A DNA stretch of 33,940 nucleotides from a virus. The notes below the pieces were generated by a model. That model searched no databases. It saw nothing but the letters and a program-made list of their open reading frames with translations, and was not told the origin of the DNA. The stretch lies in IMG/VR virus record IMGVR_UViG_3300042898_000561, positions 1 to 33,940 of that record; one strand, written 5' to 3'. The first letter of the stretch is position 1, and every line of letters starts with the position of its first letter. The position numbers and the translations under genes are program-made. Below, piece by piece: positions 777 to 30,984 of this stretch.

Positions 777-1511
777 TTAGACTTGCCTGCCTAGGGTTGT
801 TTGAAAGCGTTGGACTGCGGTGTATAAGCTGGCGTTATCGCTATCTGCTAACAAGTCGGATATAAAAGCAAAAGAAATTGTCCCTGATCCTCTTTGACCT
901 CCTGAGGTGAGAAAATCTCCTAATAGGAAAGTTGTTGTACTAGTTGCGTTTAGGTTGTGACTATAACTGGTTACGGATCCTGTTATTGCTATTTTTATAG
1001 TTGATGAAGAATCCCTAGATATAGTTTTAAACCCGTTTGAAAAAGTGGGAGTGAGTATTGCAGAATTATTACCAAATGCTGTGATTGTGCTCCAATCATA
1101 TGTATACTGTCCTGATGATCCCATTATTACAGCTACTCCATTTTTTCTATAAGCTCCAAAAGAGTATAGGCCTGAGCTATACAGGCTAGAAGGGGTTAAA
1201 TAAGTGTTCGCATATGTAGTGCTTCCATCTAAAGTACCGCCGGCTGCATCGTGAGTCCAAGAGCCTGAAAAGTTTAACCTATATGCTCCATTAGTGTCTT
1301 GTGGATCTTTTAAATTAAATTTATGAGAACCGGAAGTACCTCCTATAAACGGATAAACGGCTTTCATTTTATTCCAAAGTCCGTAGTTTTTTAAATCCGT
1401 AGTTAACTGACAAGTTGCTATTATAATAGAACTGTTTGCTTCTGTACGAGCAATACCGGCTGCGTCTAAGAAATTAAATGCTTCTGGGTTTGGTCTTAAT
1501 AGTATTGCCAT
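777..1511 (-). CDS. Putative tail adhesin, paralog 3 of a tandem family
   Basis: 244 aa, no recognised catalytic domain. It shares with the next two upstream genes an N-terminal block (TDLKNYGLWNKMKAVYPF, then a Gly-Gly and NLKDPQD), a Ser/Thr/Gly-rich beta body, and an identical C-terminus (TAVQRFQTTLGRQV). Relatives of this family are seen in fiber regions of Bacteroidota phages and metagenomic phages; the fold is probably a lectin- or LamG-like beta sandwich, but no sugar-binding residues can be assigned by eye. Spacing to the upstream gene is one base. The two end blocks are conserved and the middle diverges, as expected for a receptor-binding domain under diversifying selection. Function is inferred from context; the gene call itself is secure. 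Confidence 0.8.
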   Translation of the reverse strand: MAILLRPNPEAFNFLDAAGIARTEANSSIIIATCQLTTDLKNYGLWNKMKAVYPFIGGTSGSHKFNLKDPQDTNGAYRLNFSGSWTHDAAGGTLDGSTTYANTYLTPSSLYSSGLYSFGAYRKNGVAVIMGSSGQYTYDWSTITAFGNNSAILTPTFSNGFKTISRDSSSTIKIAITGSVTSYSHNLNATSTTTFLLGDFLTSGGQRGSGTISFAFISDLLADSDNASLYTAVQRFQTTLGRQV

Positions 1512-1512
1512 G

Positions 1513-2280
1513 TTATACTTGTCTCCCTAGTGTTGTTTGAAATCGTTGGACTGCGGTGTATAGGTTAGATGCTTCTGCAGTAGTAAATCCATCGCCTAGT
1601 GAAGCAAACGCACATTCATAGCTTAAATTATTAGTGCCTATGTTACTATTGTTCATAGCATTAATCATGACATTCCAACTAACTATAGATCCAGATGCTG
1701 CAGTTGCTGACTTTAATAATACGCCGTTTTGGTAATACTGCTGAGTTGTCGTATTTACTCTATTAGCATGTAGTAACCCTAATGTATTAGTAATAATAAC
1801 ATCGGTTTCTACAGAACTATTAATAGAATATCTAGTATTACCATTATAATTTGGTATAAGTTCATAATATGACGGCGGCGATGGATTGTTTGCTCCCATT
1901 TGATTTACACTTGAACTTCCCGAAGTTCTAGAATAATACGTAAAATGACCGCGTTCATTAAATGACTGACTCGAAGGAGTATAAAACGTATTAGCATATC
2001 CAGTTGAACTACCCGATACGCCTGTCGATGAATGTATTAATGATCCTGAAAATTGTATTCTATATGCTGCATCTGAATCTCTAGGATCTTTTAAATTCCA
2101 TTTATGTGAAAATGCTGTACCTCCTACCATAGGATAAATTGCTTTCATCTTATCCCATATGCTATAATTTTTTAAATCTGTTACTAACGTTGCAATAGCA
2201 ATACATTGAGTTGTATCAGTAATGTTTGCTGCTGAAATAAAATTTAGAGCATCGGTATTTGGTTTTGCTACAAAATACAT
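1513..2280 (-). CDS. Putative tail adhesin, paralog 2 of a tandem family
   Basis: 255 aa. The N-terminal 70 residues are clearly related to the downstream paralog: PN(T/P)xA(L/F)NF, then TDLKNYSIWDKMKAIYPMV and NLKDPRDSDAAYR. The C-terminus TAVQRFQTTLGRQV is identical in all three paralogs. The centre (about residues 80-210) carries Asn/Ser/Thr-rich strands not shared in detail with the others. The gene sits between its two paralogs with one-base gaps, so the three are almost certainly cotranscribed and translationally coupled. A receptor-binding or fiber-tip role is inferred from the position at the end of the fiber cluster. No signal peptide or membrane segment is present. Confidence 0.8.
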   Translation of the reverse strand: MYFVAKPNTDALNFISAANITDTTQCIAIATLVTDLKNYSIWDKMKAIYPMVGGTAFSHKWNLKDPRDSDAAYRIQFSGSLIHSSTGVSGSSTGYANTFYTPSSQSFNERGHFTYYSRTSGSSSVNQMGANNPSPPSYYELIPNYNGNTRYSINSSVETDVIITNTLGLLHANRVNTTTQQYYQNGVLLKSATAASGSIVSWNVMINAMNNSNIGTNNLSYECAFASLGDGFTTAEASNLYTAVQRFQTTLGRQV

Positions 2281-2281
2281 A

Positions 2282-3091
2282 TTATACCTGCCTCCCTAAT
2301 GTGGTTTGAAATCGTTGAACTGCTGTGTAAAAATTGGCTGCTTCTGTGTCTGTAAGACCGTCACCTATTGAGGCAAAAGCCAAATTCGCTGTAGAAAATT
2401 CACCAAATGTACTTCCTTCGTTACCTGCTAATAATGTGTAAGTAACATTAAGTAATGCAGTAGATGCATTAGTGAATGTTTCTATTGTTAGATTATTTTG
2501 TTTTTTAAAGAAATTAGCAGATGAGTTTCTTGATAAAATAAACATACCTTGCTGAGGTGTTTCAATACTACTTACAGCCTGTGTTGAACTTTGAAGAGAT
2601 AAATATTCACTACCATTATAATTTAAATAGAATCTTGAAAAAACTGATCCACTAACTAAACCCATTGAAACACCTGAATTGCTTGATAATATATTTCTTT
2701 GATAAATAGATATATGTAAATTATTTGAAGTTTGCTCGGTGCTTTGATTCAAATTTGTATTCATATATCCACTTGTCCCATTCCCAGTAATTCCTAAATT
2801 TGAAAATGTAACACCCCCGTTAAAAGTACCCGTAAATGAACTACTCTTTAAATTCTGTGCACAGGCGGCTGCACTTGCTCCAACCATTGGATAAATAGCT
2901 TTCATCTTATCCCATATGCTGTATAATTGCAGGTCTGATACTAAATTATAAATAGCATACCGTTGTTGTTGGTTTGTTATACCTGTAGATTGGAAAAAAT
3001 TATTAGTAGGTACAGCAGCCGCGATGTTATTTACTGGTGTTATAATTTCACCATTGTAATTTATAAAAAGTCCGTTTTTAAATACTGCCAT
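2282..3091 (-). CDS. Putative tail adhesin, paralog 1 of a tandem family
   Basis: 269 aa. The first 50 residues (MAVFKNGLFINYNGE...) differ from the other two copies. From about residue 52 it has the family block LQLYSIWDKMKAIYPMVGAS, and it ends in GDGLTDTEAANFYTAVQRF plus the shared QTTLGRQV tail. The body is beta-rich and Asn/Ser-rich. It is the most divergent of the three: the NLKDP(R/Q)D segment is reduced to NLKSSSF. The gene follows the 460-aa fiber protein by six bases. A host-recognition role is inferred from location and the pattern of conserved ends with a variable middle; no biochemical activity can be read from the sequence. Confidence 0.8.
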   Translation of the reverse strand: MAVFKNGLFINYNGEIITPVNNIAAAVPTNNFFQSTGITNQQQRYAIYNLVSDLQLYSIWDKMKAIYPMVGASAAACAQNLKSSSFTGTFNGGVTFSNLGITGNGTSGYMNTNLNQSTEQTSNNLHISIYQRNILSSNSGVSMGLVSGSVFSRFYLNYNGSEYLSLQSSTQAVSSIETPQQGMFILSRNSSANFFKKQNNLTIETFTNASTALLNVTYTLLAGNEGSTFGEFSTANLAFASIGDGLTDTEAANFYTAVQRFQTTLGRQV

Positions 3092-13286: not shown

Positions 13287-13922
13287 TTATACATCTATAC
13301 TATGCGCCTCCGTTGTATGAACGGTTTTAAGGGCCACAGTAGGATACTTTTGTTTAAGTTTATCAACTGCTTGAATATTTTTAATTGAATCATCTACAAA
13401 TAAAATATCATTGTATCCTTTTAGAATTTGACCCTCAATCCAATCAGCTTTCTTTTGTGGGTTTGCATCTCCTAATGCAACTACATATACATCTAATCCA
13501 AATTTCTTTTTTAAATAATTCTTTGGCGGATAGCCTAACATTCTAGCAGTTAAAATTGTGGTCTTTGTAGTAGGCTGACTAGCTGCTTTTTTTAATAATT
13601 CAATATTCTTACCAATTGGAGTACCTGATTTAATCATTGCATTAAATTCTTTAAAGTTAAAAGAATCATCTGGCAATGGTTCATATACTGCAAACTCAGC
13701 TGGAGTTAATGTCTTTTCATGTCCATTATTTTTTACAATAATGTTTGCTTTTACTTTAACTAATGTATCATCAAAATCAAATACTCTAAGTCTTTTTATA
13801 CTAGGGCCTTCATTAATAGAACCAAATGCGGTATGCCTAGGATCTGAATACACTGTCATTTTTTTAAACTGTGCGGTTGTTTGACGTTCAAAGTCGTTAA
13901 AGTAAAAGTTTAGTTGGTCCAT
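13287..13922 (-). CDS. HAD-superfamily phosphatase
   Basis: 211 aa. HAD motif I is VFDFDDTLV (residues 47-55, nucleophile D49 and acid D51). Motif II is ILTAR (123-127, T125). A lysine pair (157-158) precedes WIEG. Motif III is ILFVDDS (173-179, D177/D178). These are the catalytic residues of Mg-dependent aspartyl-phosphate phosphatases. The closest phage precedents are the 3'-phosphatase half of polynucleotide kinase and deoxynucleotidases; there is no kinase P-loop here, so the substrate is open. It overlaps the PhoH stop by one base (TAATGG), so the two are coupled. An ATATTTAT motif sits 17 bases before the start, inside the end of phoH. The approx 45-residue N-terminal extension before motif I is unassigned. 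Confidence 0.85.
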   Translation of the reverse strand: MDQLNFYFNDFERQTTAQFKKMTVYSDPRHTAFGSINEGPSIKRLRVFDFDDTLVKVKANIIVKNNGHEKTLTPAEFAVYEPLPDDSFNFKEFNAMIKSGTPIGKNIELLKKAASQPTTKTTILTARMLGYPPKNYLKKKFGLDVYVVALGDANPQKKADWIEGQILKGYNDILFVDDSIKNIQAVDKLKQKYPTVALKTVHTTEAHSIDV

Positions 13923-18314: not shown

Positions 18315-19346
18315 TTATCTTACTTTACCCGATTGTTGCAATGCTCTATACATTGATTCAAAGTGCTCACCTGATAAGTCATCTACCAATTCATTTAAAT
18401 CATCTGAATCAATAACTGGTAATTTTGTACCTGCAATTGAATTAGCTATTGCACCTAATTTTTTAATAGTAGAAATATTAGAAGAATTTTTCATAATATA
18501 ATTCCAAACCTTTTTTCTAGCTGCGCCTTCTAATGCAGGATTGCCAAATGCATATTTACTTTCGTTTGTTTTTGTTTTTTTACTACCTCTTCTTTTATCT
18601 CCTCTTCCATAATACCCTTCCTCAACATCGCTTTCTTTTGGTTCTTCTTTTTCTTTAGGAGCGGCAGTAGCTGCTTTTTCTTTTTCTGATGTATAATTTG
18701 CATCTACATAATTAAAAAACTTCTTCTTTGTCTTATCAGATTCTAAATCTTCTGGACCAGCCACTTTAAATTTCTTTAAAGCTTTTTTAAAGAATTGTTG
18801 ATAATCAGGACCTGACTCAGCAGCTTCATTTACCATGCTACCAATATCATAATACTTACCTAACACACCTCCAATGTCTTCATATGCAGATTCTAATCTT
18901 TGTTGCAATGTTGACATTTCTGCGGCTGTTTTATCAAATATTTTTTGAGCTTCGCCTAGTTGCTTCATGTGTCTAGACACAGTAACTTTATCGAACCAAT
19001 CTTCGGTTTCTGATAATGTTAAATGATTTGCAGCTTCGATCATATGGTTTAATGCATCAGCTGTTTCTTTTAATGAATGCTGACGATATATACCAGGTGC
19101 ATGTTCTGCAAATTTATATACTGCTTCTAAAAAAGCCTTCTTTTGTTCAGTGGACATTCCTTCCATGCCACTTGCATTTTCTTTTACTAAATTTGATAAT
19201 TTCATAGAATTAGTTTCATGCATATGTAATGCGCCTAAATATTTTTTTAATGATTCTTTGTTACCATCAGTACATCCAACTTTACTGCCATCTTCTTTTT
19301 TGAAGACGCAATATTTGTTTCCTTGTTTTCGTACTGAATATGGCAT
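18315..19346 (-). CDS. Head-operon protein of unknown function with small N-terminal module
   Basis: 343 aa. Residues 1-about 44 (MPYSVRKQGNKYCVFKKEDG..., ending LGALHMHE) form a small module seen at the ends of many phage proteins, with two Cys (C13, C25). Immediately after comes MKLSNLVKEN (48-57), which resembles the short N-terminal leader of other head-operon proteins, as if the module had been added in front of an older start. The rest is helical; a charged Lys/Glu linker lies at about 220-265, and a C-terminal helical domain includes NPALEGAARKKVWNYIM. It overlaps the following gene by one base on its upstream side (TAATG). Role unknown; its place between protease and scaffold suggests a prohead component. 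Confidence 0.7.
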   Translation of the reverse strand: MPYSVRKQGNKYCVFKKEDGSKVGCTDGNKESLKKYLGALHMHETNSMKLSNLVKENASGMEGMSTEQKKAFLEAVYKFAEHAPGIYRQHSLKETADALNHMIEAANHLTLSETEDWFDKVTVSRHMKQLGEAQKIFDKTAAEMSTLQQRLESAYEDIGGVLGKYYDIGSMVNEAAESGPDYQQFFKKALKKFKVAGPEDLESDKTKKKFFNYVDANYTSEKEKAATAAPKEKEEPKESDVEEGYYGRGDKRRGSKKTKTNESKYAFGNPALEGAARKKVWNYIMKNSSNISTIKKLGAIANSIAGTKLPVIDSDDLNELVDDLSGEHFESMYRALQQSGKVR

Positions 19347-19753
19347 TAATAGTTTCTAAATTGGTATTTACCTTGTGTGAAGAACATTGTACCAACAGTG
19401 AGGCCATTTGACCCACCCGATGGATGTGTATAACTCCATTGGAATTTAAATGAATAACCTCCAATTTCGTTTTGTAATGGATATACTGTTACAGATAAAG
19501 TTAAAGATTTAAACATACTTCTCATTACAGCTGTTTTAATTTCTTTTGAGAAGTCATATTCGTATTCTATATAACCTCTTCTTTCTTTACCGGTAGGTAA
19601 TGGACCTGCAGGAATAATAATACCTGTTTGTTGTTTAAATGTTTTTAAAGCGCCATTCATTATTTGTTCTGAAGGTGCTTCAAATTCTCCTGGTACTGCC
19701 TCTGCTAATGCTTTCTTAACTTCGGCTAATATAAATTGTTTTAGGTCTTTCAT
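19346..19753 (-). CDS. Head-operon protein of unknown function (135 aa)
   Basis: Starts MKDLKQFILAEVKKALAEA, an amphipathic helix with two (L/I)xE-type sites (LAE at residues 9-11 and again at 16-18). The remainder is beta-rich (YIEYEYDF, LTLSVTVYP, YSFKFQWSYTHPSG) and ends GKYQFRNY. No known domain is recognised. It sits one base after the prohead protease gene and overlaps the 343-aa gene by one base, so it is made with the protease. The helix looks like a capsid-targeting leader followed by a compact cargo domain, which is an inference. Confidence 0.7.
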   Translation of the reverse strand: MKDLKQFILAEVKKALAEAVPGEFEAPSEQIMNGALKTFKQQTGIIIPAGPLPTGKERRGYIEYEYDFSKEIKTAVMRSMFKSLTLSVTVYPLQNEIGGYSFKFQWSYTHPSGGSNGLTVGTMFFTQGKYQFRNY

Positions 19754-19754
19754 A

Positions 19755-20363
19755 TTAGTTTATATCTGTTAAAATATCTGTAATAAGTTTATTGATTTGT
19801 ATGTATTTGTTTTCTTGTGAAACTAAACCAGATTGTTTAGATTCATTTACTGGCTTTAAAAATGCGCCATGGGTCGACGGATTAGATACGAAATCAAATG
19901 CAATTAATTCAAAATCGTCTTGCACTTGCACTGATCCTTCACCTAAGTTTTTAACAGATCCTAATCCTCTAGATGAAATACCTAATTTAATACCTGCTTT
20001 AAAAAGTTCTTTAAGAATGTTACCAGCTGGCGTACCTAATACTTCTACAGTACCAACTAAATCATCTGCATCCCAATGCATTTCTACTACATTATGTGAT
20101 ACATTATTTAAGTTAACAACAGATGAATCTGGATGATCTAATTCGCCTAATGCTCTTCTTTCTTTAATGTTAACATCGGCATATTTTTTAGCTTCGCGCA
20201 TTAAAATATTACGAGGATATACTCTACCATTTTGGTTTTGAGCTTCTGCTCTTTGTAATACACCCTTGACCAATAAACGTCCGTTATTTTTCTCCATTGA
20301 TTCATTGATCATTTCTGGAGTTACGTCAAAGGTAATGGTATCTACTAATAATTTCTTTTCCAT
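19755..20363 (-). CDS. gp21: Prohead maturation protease, T4 gp21-like
   Basis: 202 aa, close to the T4 enzyme (212). Conserved features: GVLQRAEAQNQNGRVYP (34-50), ERRALGELDHPDS (68-80, catalytic His H77), VGTVEVLGTPAGNILKELF (103-121) and GISSRGLGSV (128-137, with the catalytic Ser in the SS pair). FELIAFDFVSNPST follows. These match the herpesvirus-assemblin-like prohead protease fold of the T4 group. The enzyme cleaves scaffold, capsid and internal proteins after (L/I)xE and finally itself; NES near residue 174 could be a self-cleavage site. It is located between the portal and the scaffold, as in T4, though three extra genes separate it from gp22 here. Confidence 0.93.
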   Translation of the reverse strand: MEKKLLVDTITFDVTPEMINESMEKNNGRLLVKGVLQRAEAQNQNGRVYPRNILMREAKKYADVNIKERRALGELDHPDSSVVNLNNVSHNVVEMHWDADDLVGTVEVLGTPAGNILKELFKAGIKLGISSRGLGSVKNLGEGSVQVQDDFELIAFDFVSNPSTHGAFLKPVNESKQSGLVSQENKYIQINKLITDILTDIN

Positions 20364-24204: not shown

Positions 24205-25803
24205 TCAAATTAACCAGGTTAAATCCTCCGGTGGCGTCTGGCTGTTACCGACTTGCATTGCCCAACCCATGTCTTTCATGTTATGACCCATAGAAGTAAA
24301 TGCGCTTTGATAGTTGCCCATATAATCTAAAGTCTTTTTATTTAATTCAATACCTTGTTGTCTTAAAATTAACGCAGTATCTCTAATCCAAAGTCCGATT
24401 GCAAATGACATTGTTAAGTCGTCATTATAACCATGTTGTGCTTCAGGTCGGCCATTTATATAAATAAATACGAACATCTCCTCTATTAATCGTTTAGATT
24501 TAATAATAGGAACTCGTTCTCTCATATATGACGACATTTTAGAAATAGCCAATGGTCTGGTTCTAGATGAATTAGTAAATCCTGCTACCATTTGAGAGGT
24601 ATCTTTTAAGTCTACATATCTAGCTAATTGTTGAGTAACATCTGAAATATTAGAATCTTTAGGAGAATAGTATAAATTCTTATAGTTTCTATTAATTGCT
24701 ACTTGAATAGATGCCCAACCTATATTTGAATTTTCTATTACTAGTAATGCATCGTTGTATTCTGTTGCAATAGTTACTAGCATATTACCATAAGTCTCAG
24801 TATCTACTTGGCCTTTGTATTCTGCTACCTGCGTAACAGATTCTACATCTATAACATGAAATGCAGAATAATCTGCGCCATCGCCTCGAGCTACGTCAGC
24901 TACTACTATATAGTCTCTACTGTAATTAGCAGGTTCCCATACCCAAAGATTACCATCAAATCCTCGTTTTTCTAACGGTTCTGCAACATGAGTTTGTTCA
25001 TACCATTGCAACACAGTACCATCTACTACAGTATTACCTGATGAAATAAAATCACAATCACATTCTTGACTTGCTTCTTTAGGACCTAATAATTCATCTT
25101 GTTTATCTCGCCATGATTGATTTCTTTCAGGATGTACCGTCCAATGTAATTTAATTGGATTGAATCGACTTCCTATTCCTGATTTAGTTTCTGCACCTGT
25201 CCATACTTTATGGAAAAAGTTACCAGTACCATTAGGAGTTGAAAGAACAATTGCTCCTCCACCTGTTGCTAACGTTTGTTGAGCTGCCGTCCATATTTCT
25301 TCAATATTTCTAATAAACGCAGCCTCATCTATAATAAGAAGTGATAATGCTTCTGAACGACCTGATGTACCTGATGATGATACAGCTTTAATTTGTGATC
25401 CGTTATCAAATCTAAGAGACAATTTATTTGCTTCCGTAGCAGGCTTTCTAAGCCAACTAGGCAAATACTCATGCATTACTTTTACTTTAAGTACTAAGTT
25501 TTTAGCTACTTCTTGAGTTGTTGCAATTACAAGAATATTTTTATCATCAAAAAATGTCATTAACCAAAGCGCATATCCCGCAGATAATGTAGATATACCT
25601 AATTGTCTGGACTTTAAAATAACATTATAATCATTATCTCGTAATGACTTTAATGTATCTTCTTGGAAAGGATAAAGATGAAATGGAATTTTACCTTTTT
25701 TAGGATGTTGAATTTTACAATACTTTTTCATGAAGTATACCGGATCTGATATACATCGTTTGTATTCTTCCCTAATTAAATCTTTAATATTTTGTCCTGA
25801 CAT
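24205..25803 (-). CDS. terL: Terminase large subunit, T4 gp17-like
   Basis: 532 aa. The ATPase half has KSRQLGIST (residues 64-72, deviant Walker A), LLIIDEAAF (155-163, Walker B D159/E160) and STPNG (189-193, coupling motif). The nuclease half has ADVARGDGADYSAFHV (302-317, metal ligand D303), VIENSN (355-360, E357) and HGYNDDLTMS (457-466, D461/D462), the RNase H-like catalytic set. It cuts concatemeric DNA and drives it into the prohead through the portal. The usual P-loop lysine (GKT) is Ile-Ser-Thr here, and Lys64 at the front of the loop may replace it. The 108 residues shorter than T4 gp17 are largely at the termini. No small terminase (gp16) was recognised in the window. Confidence 0.95.
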   Translation of the reverse strand: MSGQNIKDLIREEYKRCISDPVYFMKKYCKIQHPKKGKIPFHLYPFQEDTLKSLRDNDYNVILKSRQLGISTLSAGYALWLMTFFDDKNILVIATTQEVAKNLVLKVKVMHEYLPSWLRKPATEANKLSLRFDNGSQIKAVSSSGTSGRSEALSLLIIDEAAFIRNIEEIWTAAQQTLATGGGAIVLSTPNGTGNFFHKVWTGAETKSGIGSRFNPIKLHWTVHPERNQSWRDKQDELLGPKEASQECDCDFISSGNTVVDGTVLQWYEQTHVAEPLEKRGFDGNLWVWEPANYSRDYIVVADVARGDGADYSAFHVIDVESVTQVAEYKGQVDTETYGNMLVTIATEYNDALLVIENSNIGWASIQVAINRNYKNLYYSPKDSNISDVTQQLARYVDLKDTSQMVAGFTNSSRTRPLAISKMSSYMRERVPIIKSKRLIEEMFVFIYINGRPEAQHGYNDDLTMSFAIGLWIRDTALILRQQGIELNKKTLDYMGNYQSAFTSMGHNMKDMGWAMQVGNSQTPPEDLTWLI

Positions 25804-26395: not shown

Positions 26396-26917
26396 TTAAT
26401 CTTTTACAGGACCGCCAGTTACCCATGCATTACAAGTTCTTGATCCAGCACATTTAAATTTAAACATTGTACAATATCCTAATTTACCTGCATCTACTGT
26501 ATCCCATGCTTCTATACTAGGTGTTTGATTTTGTTGATCTGGCTTTGTAGGTTGTGGCGCAGGAGCAGGAGCAGCTTGGGCTACTTGTGCATTTGGATCT
26601 TCTCCTTCAGCTACTGGTACACTTATTTCTTTCTCGCCCTTAGACAAGCCTATTTCCATACACTTTAAGATTCTAGATGTAATATTAAAAGCAGCACAAT
26701 TATTGCATCTAGCAGATTTTGCTTCATCGATTGAATCTAACTTCCACAATTCCATTTTTTCTTTCCAGAATTTAATGGATGGATTGTTAGGATTATATGG
26801 ACCATATCCATATCGTTCAATAGCAATTTGTCTATGCTTTAAGTTTACTGCTACATCCTGGGTAGCAACTGGACATTTAATTGTCTCTTCGTTTAATAGT
26901 TCTGTTAATTTTATCAT
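26396..26917 (-). CDS. Conserved cysteine-rich phage protein, possible metal-binding domain
   Basis: 173 aa from the ATG at 26917. Conserved marks: CPVATQDVAVNLKHRQIAIE (15-34), NNPSIKFWKEK (44-54), ARCNNCAAFN (69-78), KCMEIG (85-90), AGKLGYCTMFKFKC (143-156) and SRTCNAWVTGG (159-169). Seven Cys (15, 71, 74, 86, 149, 156, 162) in this spacing recall Fe-S or zinc sites; the C-x2-C...C...GYC order is loosely like high-potential iron-sulfur proteins. A Pro/Ala/Gln linker (about 118-140) splits the domain. Homologous proteins are common in T4-like marine phages, function unknown. An ATG at 26977 is open but would overlap the upstream gene by 56 bases; 26917 lies just after that gene's stop and gives the leader MIKLTELLNE. 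Confidence 0.75.
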   Translation of the reverse strand: MIKLTELLNEETIKCPVATQDVAVNLKHRQIAIERYGYGPYNPNNPSIKFWKEKMELWKLDSIDEAKSARCNNCAAFNITSRILKCMEIGLSKGEKEISVPVAEGEDPNAQVAQAAPAPAPQPTKPDQQNQTPSIEAWDTVDAGKLGYCTMFKFKCAGSRTCNAWVTGGPVKD

Positions 26918-26921
26918 AATA

Positions 26922-27713
26922 TTACCATGCTTTACATGACCAATAACGTGCCTTATGACGAGGTCCTGGATTTTCACAATTATGTCTTGCTCTAAAAGAT
27001 TTTCTTCTTTCGGGATTAGACTTTTTAATTTTCATATTAGGGTCTCCAAAATTTACCTTTACGACATTTCCTTTATCATTACGTACATATACTGAACGCT
27101 TTCTAGGTCCGTCTGGTGTATAAAATGGTTTACCTAATTTTACTTTTCTTCCTTTATATTCAGCTTCTTCTAATTCTTGCGTTTCTTCTTTAACACAATT
27201 ATTAACTCGCTTACCTGTTTTAGAAGATACTTTTGTTTTAGGATTGCCTATTTTATATCCGTCCCAACAAGAAGGATCTAATCGTTGACCGGCTTCATTT
27301 ACTTTTTTTTTTGACTCAGTCTTTAATTTTTTTAAATCTCCAACTATGATGTCCGTAGGTGATGATTTAGGTGATTTATTTTTTTTATCATAGTCACCCA
27401 TTTTAACTCCTTTTTGAAGCTTCTTATCACCGAATGCAGCAGTTTCTAAATCTTTTTCTTCTGGCATTTCTGCTACTTCCTGGTCTGCAAACCAATCTTG
27501 CATTTTAGCACAATTGTTCATAAATTGAGCTATATCGTCTTGGTCTGACTCAGGAAATTTATCAAATCCTAATTCATAGAAGCCATCAATGTCATCGTCA
27601 TCTAATAAATTTTCTAACTTTTTCTTGTTAGAATCAAACCATTTAGTTACTTGGTTTTGTAGTGATACCGCAGCTTCTTCGGTTTCTTTTAATAAGTCTT
27701 TTAAACGTATCAT
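26922..27713 (-). CDS. Conserved phage protein with two Cys-containing C-terminal modules
   Basis: 263 aa. The N-terminal leader MIRLKDLLKE (1-10) matches other head-operon proteins. A helical acidic part (about 15-100) is followed by a Lys-rich linker. Module 1 (about 143-174) has DPSCWDGYKIG...KTGKRVNNCV. Module 2 (about 186-263) has YKGRKVKLGKPFYTPDG, RKRSVYVRN, VNFGDPNMKIKKSNPERRK and FRARHNCENPGP...YWSCKAW. Both modules are found as add-ons in structural proteins of T4-like aquatic phages; the Cys/His residues (H244, C246, C260) may bind zinc. The start overlaps the preceding stop (ATGA). Function unknown; packaging into the head is suggested by the leader. Confidence 0.75.
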   Translation of the reverse strand: MIRLKDLLKETEEAAVSLQNQVTKWFDSNKKKLENLLDDDDIDGFYELGFDKFPESDQDDIAQFMNNCAKMQDWFADQEVAEMPEEKDLETAAFGDKKLQKGVKMGDYDKKNKSPKSSPTDIIVGDLKKLKTESKKKVNEAGQRLDPSCWDGYKIGNPKTKVSSKTGKRVNNCVKEETQELEEAEYKGRKVKLGKPFYTPDGPRKRSVYVRNDKGNVVKVNFGDPNMKIKKSNPERRKSFRARHNCENPGPRHKARYWSCKAW

Positions 27714-28320: not shown

Positions 28321-30984
28321 TTATTGATTTTTTTGAAATTGAGATGTTTGTCCGGTTATAATAAACTGACCTGTCAACTTAAATGGTTTATCATAGATCT
28401 TTTCATCTCTAATTACTACACCTTCGTGGTCTGATACAACTCCTAATTTAGAATCTAAATTCTTTAATACTTCATCTCCTAATTTGGCAGTAGCTAAATA
28501 TGTAATTGCTCCATTGATTGCCATTGGAATGTCTTTAGGATCGGCCACGAATTCATTCATAGGCGTGCCGGCTAAGACTGCGTTTAACACAGCCTTTGAA
28601 AGCGCGTTAACTGTTTTACCATCGGTTAACTTAATAGTCTCATTTTCAGGTACTTTGATTGTAGACAACCAAGCTGATAAAGGTTTTGTTTCTTCTTTAT
28701 CACCCATATTAATTGTTATTTTTTCTGATAATACTTTTGCAAAATTAGGTTCTGATTTCATTTCAGTTGGCACTGATCCTACTACTTCATATCCTTTTGT
28801 TTGAGCAACTGCACCTAATTTATCAATATAACTTTGCATTATACTTTCGTTATAGTCAATTTCAGTAGTTGTTCTAGCACCTGGTTTACCTGTTTTAGCA
28901 TTTGTTTGTCTAGCTATTTCTAATAAACCATGAATAGCTAAAAAGTTATTTCCATAGTCAATTACATTAGATGTACCTGATACATATTCAACATTAAACA
29001 TTACATTTGGATTATCCCATAAACCTAACTTAACTAGTTCTGATTTTGTTTCATTTAAAGCTGCATTAAATATATCTAATACTTCGCCACCTACTTTAAT
29101 CATGCCATGGCCTTCGCCGAATCTACCTAATAAATCGTCTTTAGTAATTCCTTTAATGTCTAAGTCTTTTTGTGATCCTCTATCTAATACAAATTGTTTT
29201 TTACCATCTAACTCAATTAATCTAACAGAAGCATTTAATCCATCAATTTTAACTGCTCCCGGGCCATTTTTAAGATACTCGACTGCCATCTTAAATACTT
29301 CTAATAAATCCTTTCCGTTCTTTACCCAATCAATATTAAATGGATGTGCCATATGACCTGCGGCCCCACCGTCCGATATAAGTTTCTTACCTGATGAGCT
29401 AGGTATAAATGTTACACCTTCTTGTATACCTACTCCTACAACTGTTTTAGGGAATGTATCAAAATCATAAACAAACTCTCTACCTATGTTAGCATTTAGA
29501 AAATTCTTTAATTTATCTAACTTAGCATTGTGCTTTTTAGTTTGTTCAGCTCCCATATAACCTTCAGTAACCGCGCCTGGTAATGTAGCTAATATTAAGT
29601 CTCCAATTTTTTCAAATTTGGTTCCTGGGAATGCTTTAGAAATAAAGGCTTTATATAAATTATCTCTTTGAGTGCCAAAATTTTCTTCATTTGATTTTTT
29701 AGATGGAGAATAAATAATGGCTTGAGCTTTAGATGTTTTAATATATTTTTTAACTATATCAGCAACTGTAGCCATTACTTTATAAAGTTCGCCTTTATTA
29801 ACTACTATTTTAGCGGATCCACCTGCAGCACCTTTAGGTTTAGCTGAGAATTCAATTTCTATGGTTCTTAAATTTTTTAAGTTATCATCAATATAATTAG
29901 TTGATTTTAAATCTACATCGTATTGAGTTTCACTATCTGTTACAAAACGAGTATAAATAAAATAACTTTCTCTATCTATTTCTTCCCATTTATATGGTTT
30001 AAGATTTGCCTCGCCTACCTCGTTTACAAAAGCTGATGGGGTAACTAATGATTCTTGACCTAATAATTTTAATAATGCTCCTACGATTATACCACCTGGT
30101 GCTACAGCAATTGCAGTTAATCCAGCTAATTTTAATGTATCTTTTAACTGTTCACCTATTTCTGACTTTTGTGTATCAGTTAATTTAATATCACCTTTTG
30201 CAGCTTTAATTATTAGATTAAATGCTTTTTTAGTTTCTGCATTTTCTTGTTTTAATTTACTTAAAAATACTTTAAATTTACTTTTAATCTGTGTTAGTAT
30301 ATTTTCTTCTGTAATTGAATTTTTTGTTTTTTCATCAATACTTTCAAATATACTTTTCCACCAATTTTTACTAAATACGGTTTCGTTTAGTGCTTCTAAT
30401 TTTGCCATCATGTTATTTGCTATTTTAGCATCGTACCATCCAAATATGTCTTTAAATACTTTGCTTTTTTCTTCTCTAGAAATTGTTTTATCGCCTAATA
30501 CTTTTCTTAATTCAGTACCTGACATTTCACCATATCCTGGTATATTAATAGATACATGCGGTGCTGTTATTAAATATCCATGTTTATCAAATCCTTGAAG
30601 ATTACTTTTATTGTCTTTATATATTTGAAAGTAACTAGGAGATCCGTCTTTTTTAGTTCCTATCTTAAATCTAGGATCTTCTTGCATGTCCTTTTCTCCT
30701 ACCATAAATACTACTGCAGTATCTTCTGGATCGAAGTCTTTCATTAACTCTTCAGCTTTATATGGATTTTTAACTTGAATTACATGGTCAAATCCGTATT
30801 GAGTAATAATGTCTTTTTTGTCTTCGAAACTAAATGGAGATTTTGGTGGATCTACTTTATCTGATGTTACGATATATGCATTTGCTTGGCCAAATTCTTT
30901 TTGTAACCACTTAAATGCAGCTGCATGATGCTTTCCAAAAGGTTGAAATCTTCCTGGATAAATTGCTATAATATGTTTAATCAT
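28321..30984 (-). CDS. NMN-adenylyltransferase-like / polynucleotide-ligase-like fusion protein
   Basis: 887 aa, four parts. (1) Residues 1-about 190: HIGH-family nucleotidyltransferase like NadM, with YPGRFQPFGKHH (9-20) and SGTELR (155-160, the ISSTxxR motif). The first His of (H/T)xGH is Gly17 here. (2) About 262-320: LETM1-like segment with AVAPGGIIVGALLK and TPSAF, hydrophobic enough to touch a membrane. (3) About 330-470: alpha/beta domain with RDNLYKAFISKAFPG. (4) About 530-880: covalent nucleotidyltransferase fold, motif I KIDG (579-582, nucleophile Lys579), motif III FNVEYV (663-668), motif IV EGVVIRD (854-860), motif V PFKLTG (867-872). Ligase-like activity is inferred; substrate unknown. 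The gene stands alone between virion genes and is preceded by an inverted repeat holding ATATTTAT. Confidence 0.75.
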   Translation of the reverse strand: MIKHIIAIYPGRFQPFGKHHAAAFKWLQKEFGQANAYIVTSDKVDPPKSPFSFEDKKDIITQYGFDHVIQVKNPYKAEELMKDFDPEDTAVVFMVGEKDMQEDPRFKIGTKKDGSPSYFQIYKDNKSNLQGFDKHGYLITAPHVSINIPGYGEMSGTELRKVLGDKTISREEKSKVFKDIFGWYDAKIANNMMAKLEALNETVFSKNWWKSIFESIDEKTKNSITEENILTQIKSKFKVFLSKLKQENAETKKAFNLIIKAAKGDIKLTDTQKSEIGEQLKDTLKLAGLTAIAVAPGGIIVGALLKLLGQESLVTPSAFVNEVGEANLKPYKWEEIDRESYFIYTRFVTDSETQYDVDLKSTNYIDDNLKNLRTIEIEFSAKPKGAAGGSAKIVVNKGELYKVMATVADIVKKYIKTSKAQAIIYSPSKKSNEENFGTQRDNLYKAFISKAFPGTKFEKIGDLILATLPGAVTEGYMGAEQTKKHNAKLDKLKNFLNANIGREFVYDFDTFPKTVVGVGIQEGVTFIPSSSGKKLISDGGAAGHMAHPFNIDWVKNGKDLLEVFKMAVEYLKNGPGAVKIDGLNASVRLIELDGKKQFVLDRGSQKDLDIKGITKDDLLGRFGEGHGMIKVGGEVLDIFNAALNETKSELVKLGLWDNPNVMFNVEYVSGTSNVIDYGNNFLAIHGLLEIARQTNAKTGKPGARTTTEIDYNESIMQSYIDKLGAVAQTKGYEVVGSVPTEMKSEPNFAKVLSEKITINMGDKEETKPLSAWLSTIKVPENETIKLTDGKTVNALSKAVLNAVLAGTPMNEFVADPKDIPMAINGAITYLATAKLGDEVLKNLDSKLGVVSDHEGVVIRDEKIYDKPFKLTGQFIITGQTSQFQKNQ

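Follow-up and report, generated by a model that had tools for sequence, protein, structure and literature searches.

Gene content of the window and domain layout

The window, that is, the whole 33,940-base stretch of uncultured-virus DNA analysed here, carries head genes of the T4 type, namely, those for a gp20 portal, a gp23 capsid protein, a large terminase, and an S77 protease of the gp21 type. Its source is an uncultured T4-like virus of bacteria. The original prediction of a NadM-like and a polynucleotide-ligase-like domain within a single ORF of 887 aa was confirmed on the minus strand. The features are given below, with centered dots marking module borders.

28321..30984, (-): whole modular ORF, 887 aa; from the ORF call and relatives
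30382..30984, (-): HIGH-superfamily nucleotidylyltransferase (NTase) domain as assigned by profile and structure searches, residues 1-201, with GRFQPFGKHH, VGEKD, and SGTELR; C-terminal end LNE·
30307..30381, (-): linker, residues 202-226, with WWKSIFE..SITE; similar by eye to N-terminal leaders of relatives (e.g., NWLAKQILTE)
30019..30306, (-): hydrophobic APGG module, residues 227-322, C-terminal end FVNE·; shared with other proteins (L017, L018)
29563..30018, (-): DUF6934-like module, residues 323-474, C-terminal end VTE·; occurs by itself or in duplicate elsewhere (other proteins, L019 and L020)
29419..29562, (-): small module, residues 475-522, GYMGAEQ...GIQE·
28324..29370, (-): ligase-like covalent nucleotidyltransferase domain, residues 539-887, starting GGAAGHMAHPF
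29248-29250, 28987-28989, 28423-28425, and 28378-28380, (-): codons of Lys579, Glu666, Glu854, and Lys869, respectively
19755..20363, (-): S77 prohead protease, T4 gp21 type (PF03420, E 9e-30; phrog_207, E 1e-54); candidate enzyme for processing the modular protein
24205..25803, (-): large terminase; in most relatives, its gene is close to the ligase ORF

The hydrophobic APGG segment described originally is real and conserved. The LETM1 identity proposed for the middle segment was not supported, as the LETM1_RBD profile matched one of seven members, at E 0.18, and did not match the window protein itself.

N-terminal nucleotidylyltransferase domain

Searches with the single NTase sequence gave weak matches to PF01467 (E 5e-4) and to phrog_395, annotated as cytidyltransferase (E 6e-7). 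When the profile of the 58-member family was searched against the PDB, archaeal NadM (1f9a, E 7e-6), the Francisella NMNAT-Nudix protein (2qjt), and phosphopantetheine adenylyltransferases (PPATs) were found. Foldseek matched the AlphaFold2 model (pLDDT 94) to PPAT, NadD, and NadM at about 1e-5. Because of these profile and model matches, the N-terminal domain is assigned to the HIGH-superfamily nucleotidylyltransferases, and both the fold and the SxTxxR motif of that superfamily are present. The NadM-type label of the original prediction is upheld at this level by the profile match to 1f9a and the agreeing fold search, and the domain resembles PPAT as much as NMNAT in both kinds of search. 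The curated cut-off for NadM was not reached by the window NTase (TIGR01527, 12 bits vs 181).

The domain shares with NadM, NadM-Nudix, and NadR the HIGH fold and the GRFQPF and SGTxxR motifs, whereas the HxGH signature is missing: GxHH stands in its place in the window NTase and in about nine tenths of the family (AxHH or SxHH in a few), and HxGH is intact in a few relatives only. Moreover, the partner in NadM-Nudix and NadR is a Nudix domain or a riboside kinase, whereas the partner here is a ligase-like domain.

C-terminal ligase-like domain

The polynucleotide ligase motifs I (KxDG), III (E), IV (EG), and V (K) are present in order in the C-terminal domain. K579, D581, G582, E666, E854, G855, and K869 were invariant across 52 aligned sequences, and the same pattern was invariant in a second, divergent subfamily (33 sequences). 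A chance match is ruled out by this invariance across 85 sequences, and the ordered motif set on which the original prediction relied holds far beyond chance. A pairwise comparison of the profiles of the two ligase types gave a match at E 5e-16. IMG/VR holds more than 340 relatives of the window type and more than 580 of the second type. A single partial match on a 3-kb MAG contig was the only cellular homologue, and no close ones were found.

The C-terminal domain had no sequence match in Pfam, PHROGs, or the PDB, and a PDB sequence search with the profiles of both ligase families returned nothing. In the case of the structural model (pLDDT 85), the first Foldseek match in the PDB was T4 Rnl1, followed by other RNA and DNA ligases at E 0.02 and up; the top 16 matches were mostly polynucleotide ligases, with weak scores (best E 0.02, TM-score 0.22). 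In the viral fold library (BFVD), members of the model's own family ranked first; proteins of S-PM2 and other phages came next, followed by viral RNA ligases. The predicted fold points weakly to T4 Rnl1-type ligases, and the chemistry of the domain is likely of the ligase type, with nucleic-acid end repair as a plausible role. The domain is like T4 Rnl1, Rnl2, Rnl3, Rnl5, and T7 DNA ligase in the order of KxDG, motif III Glu, EG, and motif V Lys, and its best, although weak, PDB fold matches are to such ligases, but it differs from T4 Rnl1 and the other ligases in the lack of any match at the sequence level. It also has a conserved start, GHMxHPF, of its own and carries extra sequence, a long insertion, between motif III and motif IV. 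This ligase-like family, which numbers hundreds of members in environmental data, had been without annotation.

Pairing and exchange of modules among relatives

The pairing of NTase and ligase recurs, either fused or as adjacent genes in either order. The two domains are joined without a spacer in L008-L011 and through different spacers in further relatives, and the ligase is joined to another NTase type in L013 and L014. In L091, they are separate adjacent genes and the ligase starts with MNLIKILLSE·GGTGGHM; in the jumbo phage LR756500, the adjacent genes are in reverse order and the ligase starts with MKFLKSYEEFLNENLILE·GG. The middle modules of the window ORF were found in other proteins (L017-L020), and some relatives with the second ligase type add a zeta-toxin/AAA_33 P-loop kinase. 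No clear co-evolution of NTase and ligase beyond shared vertical descent was seen, the two domains being not clearly closer to each other than either is to the terminase.

Several of these proteins carry further modules. In a jumbo-phage version (L023:6465-9221), a ParB-like N-terminal module (E 4e-4) precedes the NTase and ligase. The protein at L019:2845-5244 contains a duplicated DUF6934-like module and a YHAT...GL...VYLA.D...YA module that resembles an ADP-ribosyltransferase or Tpt1-like fold. Insertions directly before the ligase domain turn LxE·GG into LLxC·GG in L015:907-3006, L059, and L095; the insert of L015, which has a ROS_MUCR match (E 6e-4), is homing-endonuclease-like. Another modular ORF lies at 26922-27713 (-) in the window, with the leader MIRLKDLLKE·, followed by VNE· and a cysteine module with CWDGYK, which also occurs inside the ligase-ORF relatives L015 and L034.

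A more distant candidate counterpart was found in cyanophages. The replication block of Synechococcus phage S-PM2 encodes a DUF6267-NTase fusion (S-PM2d138; 521 matching phage records) without spacer modules. Many other cyanophages have DUF6267 directly before a separate cytidyltransferase gene. DUF6267 and the ligase family were linked by a BFVD fold match (E 5e-4), a weak hhalign match (E 0.027), and common KxDG, EG, and Lys columns; DUF6267 is tentatively placed in the same superfamily as the window ligase domain on these profile and model comparisons. The DUF6267 (PF19782) and cytidyltransferase pair shares with the window pair the KxDG...EG...K pattern and a place adjoining or fused to a HIGH NTase, but differs in its reversed order, in its location in the replication/nucleotide block, and in having no obvious leaders. 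A limited open-access literature search found no papers on DUF6267. The recurrent NTase-ligase pairing and this candidate pair point to a common chemistry.

Module borders and prohead-protease-type sites

The borders in the window protein are LNE·T, VNE·V, VTE·G, IQE·G, and LISD·GG. T4 gp21 cuts after L/I-x-E, and leaders of 10-19 residues direct its internal proteins into the head (PMC9026906). The [LIVMF]xE border sites are close to this specificity, and a gp21 homologue is encoded in the window. A first breakpoint test was non-independent, and its cluster version, a crude one that took in all 162 clusters, did not reach significance (44 vs 35.8). A test of module-indel junctions, which included motif controls, took their place. 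With the junctions in ligase ORFs, [LIVMF]xE lay within 2 aa in 44 of 69 clusters, against 11.7 expected; the clusters are not fully independent. After junctions at the ligase start were set aside, the motif remained at 25/41 clusters vs 7.2 expected, a value reached in 0 of 1000 shuffles; this test was chosen after two earlier breakpoint tests, and its p-value is to be read accordingly. In the same 41 clusters, xD, xK, xQ, xN, and polar-xE were not enriched. In the case of junctions in other ORFs, [LIVMF]xE was present at 7/19 vs 3.6 expected and [LI]xE at 1/19 vs 1.8.

The residue before the ligase GG was Glu in 80 of 88 distinct contexts and Cys or Met in seven others. The window protein has Asp there, and Asp at the cleavage residue blocked processing of the CTS in T4 IPIII (PMC9026906). 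By analogy, the last junction, LISD·GG, may not be cut in the window protein. Many relatives carry leaders of a capsid-targeting type (MNLGNWLAKQILTE·, MNKLTKWLVESILTE·, MNLIKILLSE·GG), whereas an N-terminal targeting leader is absent from the window protein. Terminase or other head genes were found in the retrieved flanking sequence of 128 of 173 ligase loci. Elsewhere in the window, two ORFs, at 19346-19753 and 26396-26977 (-), have N-termini, MKDLKQFILAE and MIKLTELLNEE, that resemble leaders of the capsid-targeting kind.

Possible functions of the modular protein

The original prediction coupled the two domains through NMN or NAD+, which is unlikely. In one version, an NAD+-dependent ligase would release NMN and the NMNAT domain would return it to NAD+. 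Both domain types do share one ORF, and their pairing recurs in other arrangements, but the first His of HxGH is lost in about 90% of the NTase family, the nearest fold is that of the ATP-using T4 Rnl1, no NAD+-binding Ia-type domain was matched in a Pfam search that was general rather than Ia-specific, and the net effect would equal direct use of ATP; such recycling is very improbable. In the other version, NAD+ would be restored against NAD-depleting host defences while the ligase domain did something separate. The NadM-like fold and an early injected delivery would suit this role, but the resemblance of the NTase is to PPAT as much as to NMNAT. Moreover, NadV accompanied every NadM phage in a literature survey (PMC9503650), unlike here, where no NAMPT/NadV partner was found in the complete Microcystis phage Mel-JY01, a relative, or in a pair of contigs, each about 180 kb long. 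There is little chance that this version is correct.

Coupling within one polypeptide is itself probably wrong for the mature form, as the module borders fall on sites of the prohead-protease type. The protein could instead be an uncut cytoplasmic multidomain enzyme made late, with [LIV]xE borders that reflect linker composition and with NTase and ligase acting together on nucleic acid or nucleotides in the infected cell. The missing leader and the last site of the window protein (LISD, not LIxE) would agree with this, as would the S-PM2 version in its replication block, fused without spacer modules. However, the border enrichment is specific to hydrophobic-x-E and absent for polar-x-E, xK, and xD, most relatives are located in the head block, and many of them have leaders. 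We consider an uncut enzyme rather unlikely.

The border sites, the leaders of the relatives, and the position near the terminase gene suggest a head-packaged, cut precursor rather than one bifunctional enzyme. There is about an even chance, in our judgement, that the ORF encodes a modular precursor that is packaged in the head, cut by the phage's own protease, and injected as separate enzymes, including the NTase and ligase-type pair. The precursor would be co-assembled into the prohead of the T4-like phage, a gp21-type protease would cut it wherever an [L/I/V]xE site separates two modules, and the separate enzymes would be injected together with the phage DNA. Lys579 would attack ATP, or possibly another nucleotide, to form lysyl-NMP, after which a 5' end would be activated. 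The most likely job would be to seal or repair the ends of nucleic acids as infection begins, at a stage when the synthesis of new phage proteins is still to come. Here, we infer packaging, cleavage, and injection as well as the substrate of each enzyme and the cooperation of the enzymes. Virion-associated delivery, already guessed in the original prediction, gains circumstantial support from the head-block location, the leaders of relatives, and the border sites. If the border sites are cut, a single precursor would yield, through the head-maturation protease, a set of injected enzymes that can be swapped.

Comparison with known head-packaged proteins

Head-packaged enzymes and polyvalent proteins are already known (PMC5512222). 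The proposed precursor resembles the T4 internal head proteins (Alt and IPI-III, with a CTS cut by gp21) in that it goes with T4-like head genes and an S77 protease, has relatives whose short leaders end in xxE, and is proposed to act early, after injection. It differs from them in that a single precursor would combine several enzyme modules, separated by candidate cut sites, and in that modules are swapped among phages. Polyvalent proteins are large multidomain phage proteins thought to be packaged in the head and injected (Iyer et al. 2017; PMC5512222). The likeness to them lies in the multidomain build, the variable domain order, and the encoding with head and packaging genes, whereas the domain set differs and their description (PMC5512222) was not found to mention module borders with sites for the prohead protease. 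Domains that define polyvalent proteins (e.g., MuF, DarB-type, MPTase) gave no Pfam match in the window protein.

In a limited open-access literature search, neither a multi-enzyme precursor with border sites of the prohead-protease type nor the ligase family was found. The ORF may tentatively be viewed as a cargo polyprotein, in which exchangeable modules would be split by prohead-protease sites so that one gene could load and release a changing set of injected enzymes, and the conserved NTase-ligase pair would perform a two-step nucleic-acid end chemistry unseen elsewhere.

Other observations in the window and its relatives

An HAD-type protein at 13287-13922 (-) in the window matches phrog_415, annotated as polynucleotide kinase (E 9e-8), and is a possible end-healing phosphatase adjoining PhoH. 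In L104:9385-12120 and L105:6048-8783, the terminase gene is interrupted in frame by an intein-like insertion of 377 aa, which has C(FSGN) at one boundary and VHN·C at the other. In L029, L034, L037, and L038, terminase similarity extends over two or three ORFs, which suggests introns, inteins, or homing endonuclease insertions. Three paralogous ORFs in tandem at 777-3091 (-) in the window have the common end AVQRFQTTLGRQV and are probably tail-fibre or appendage proteins.
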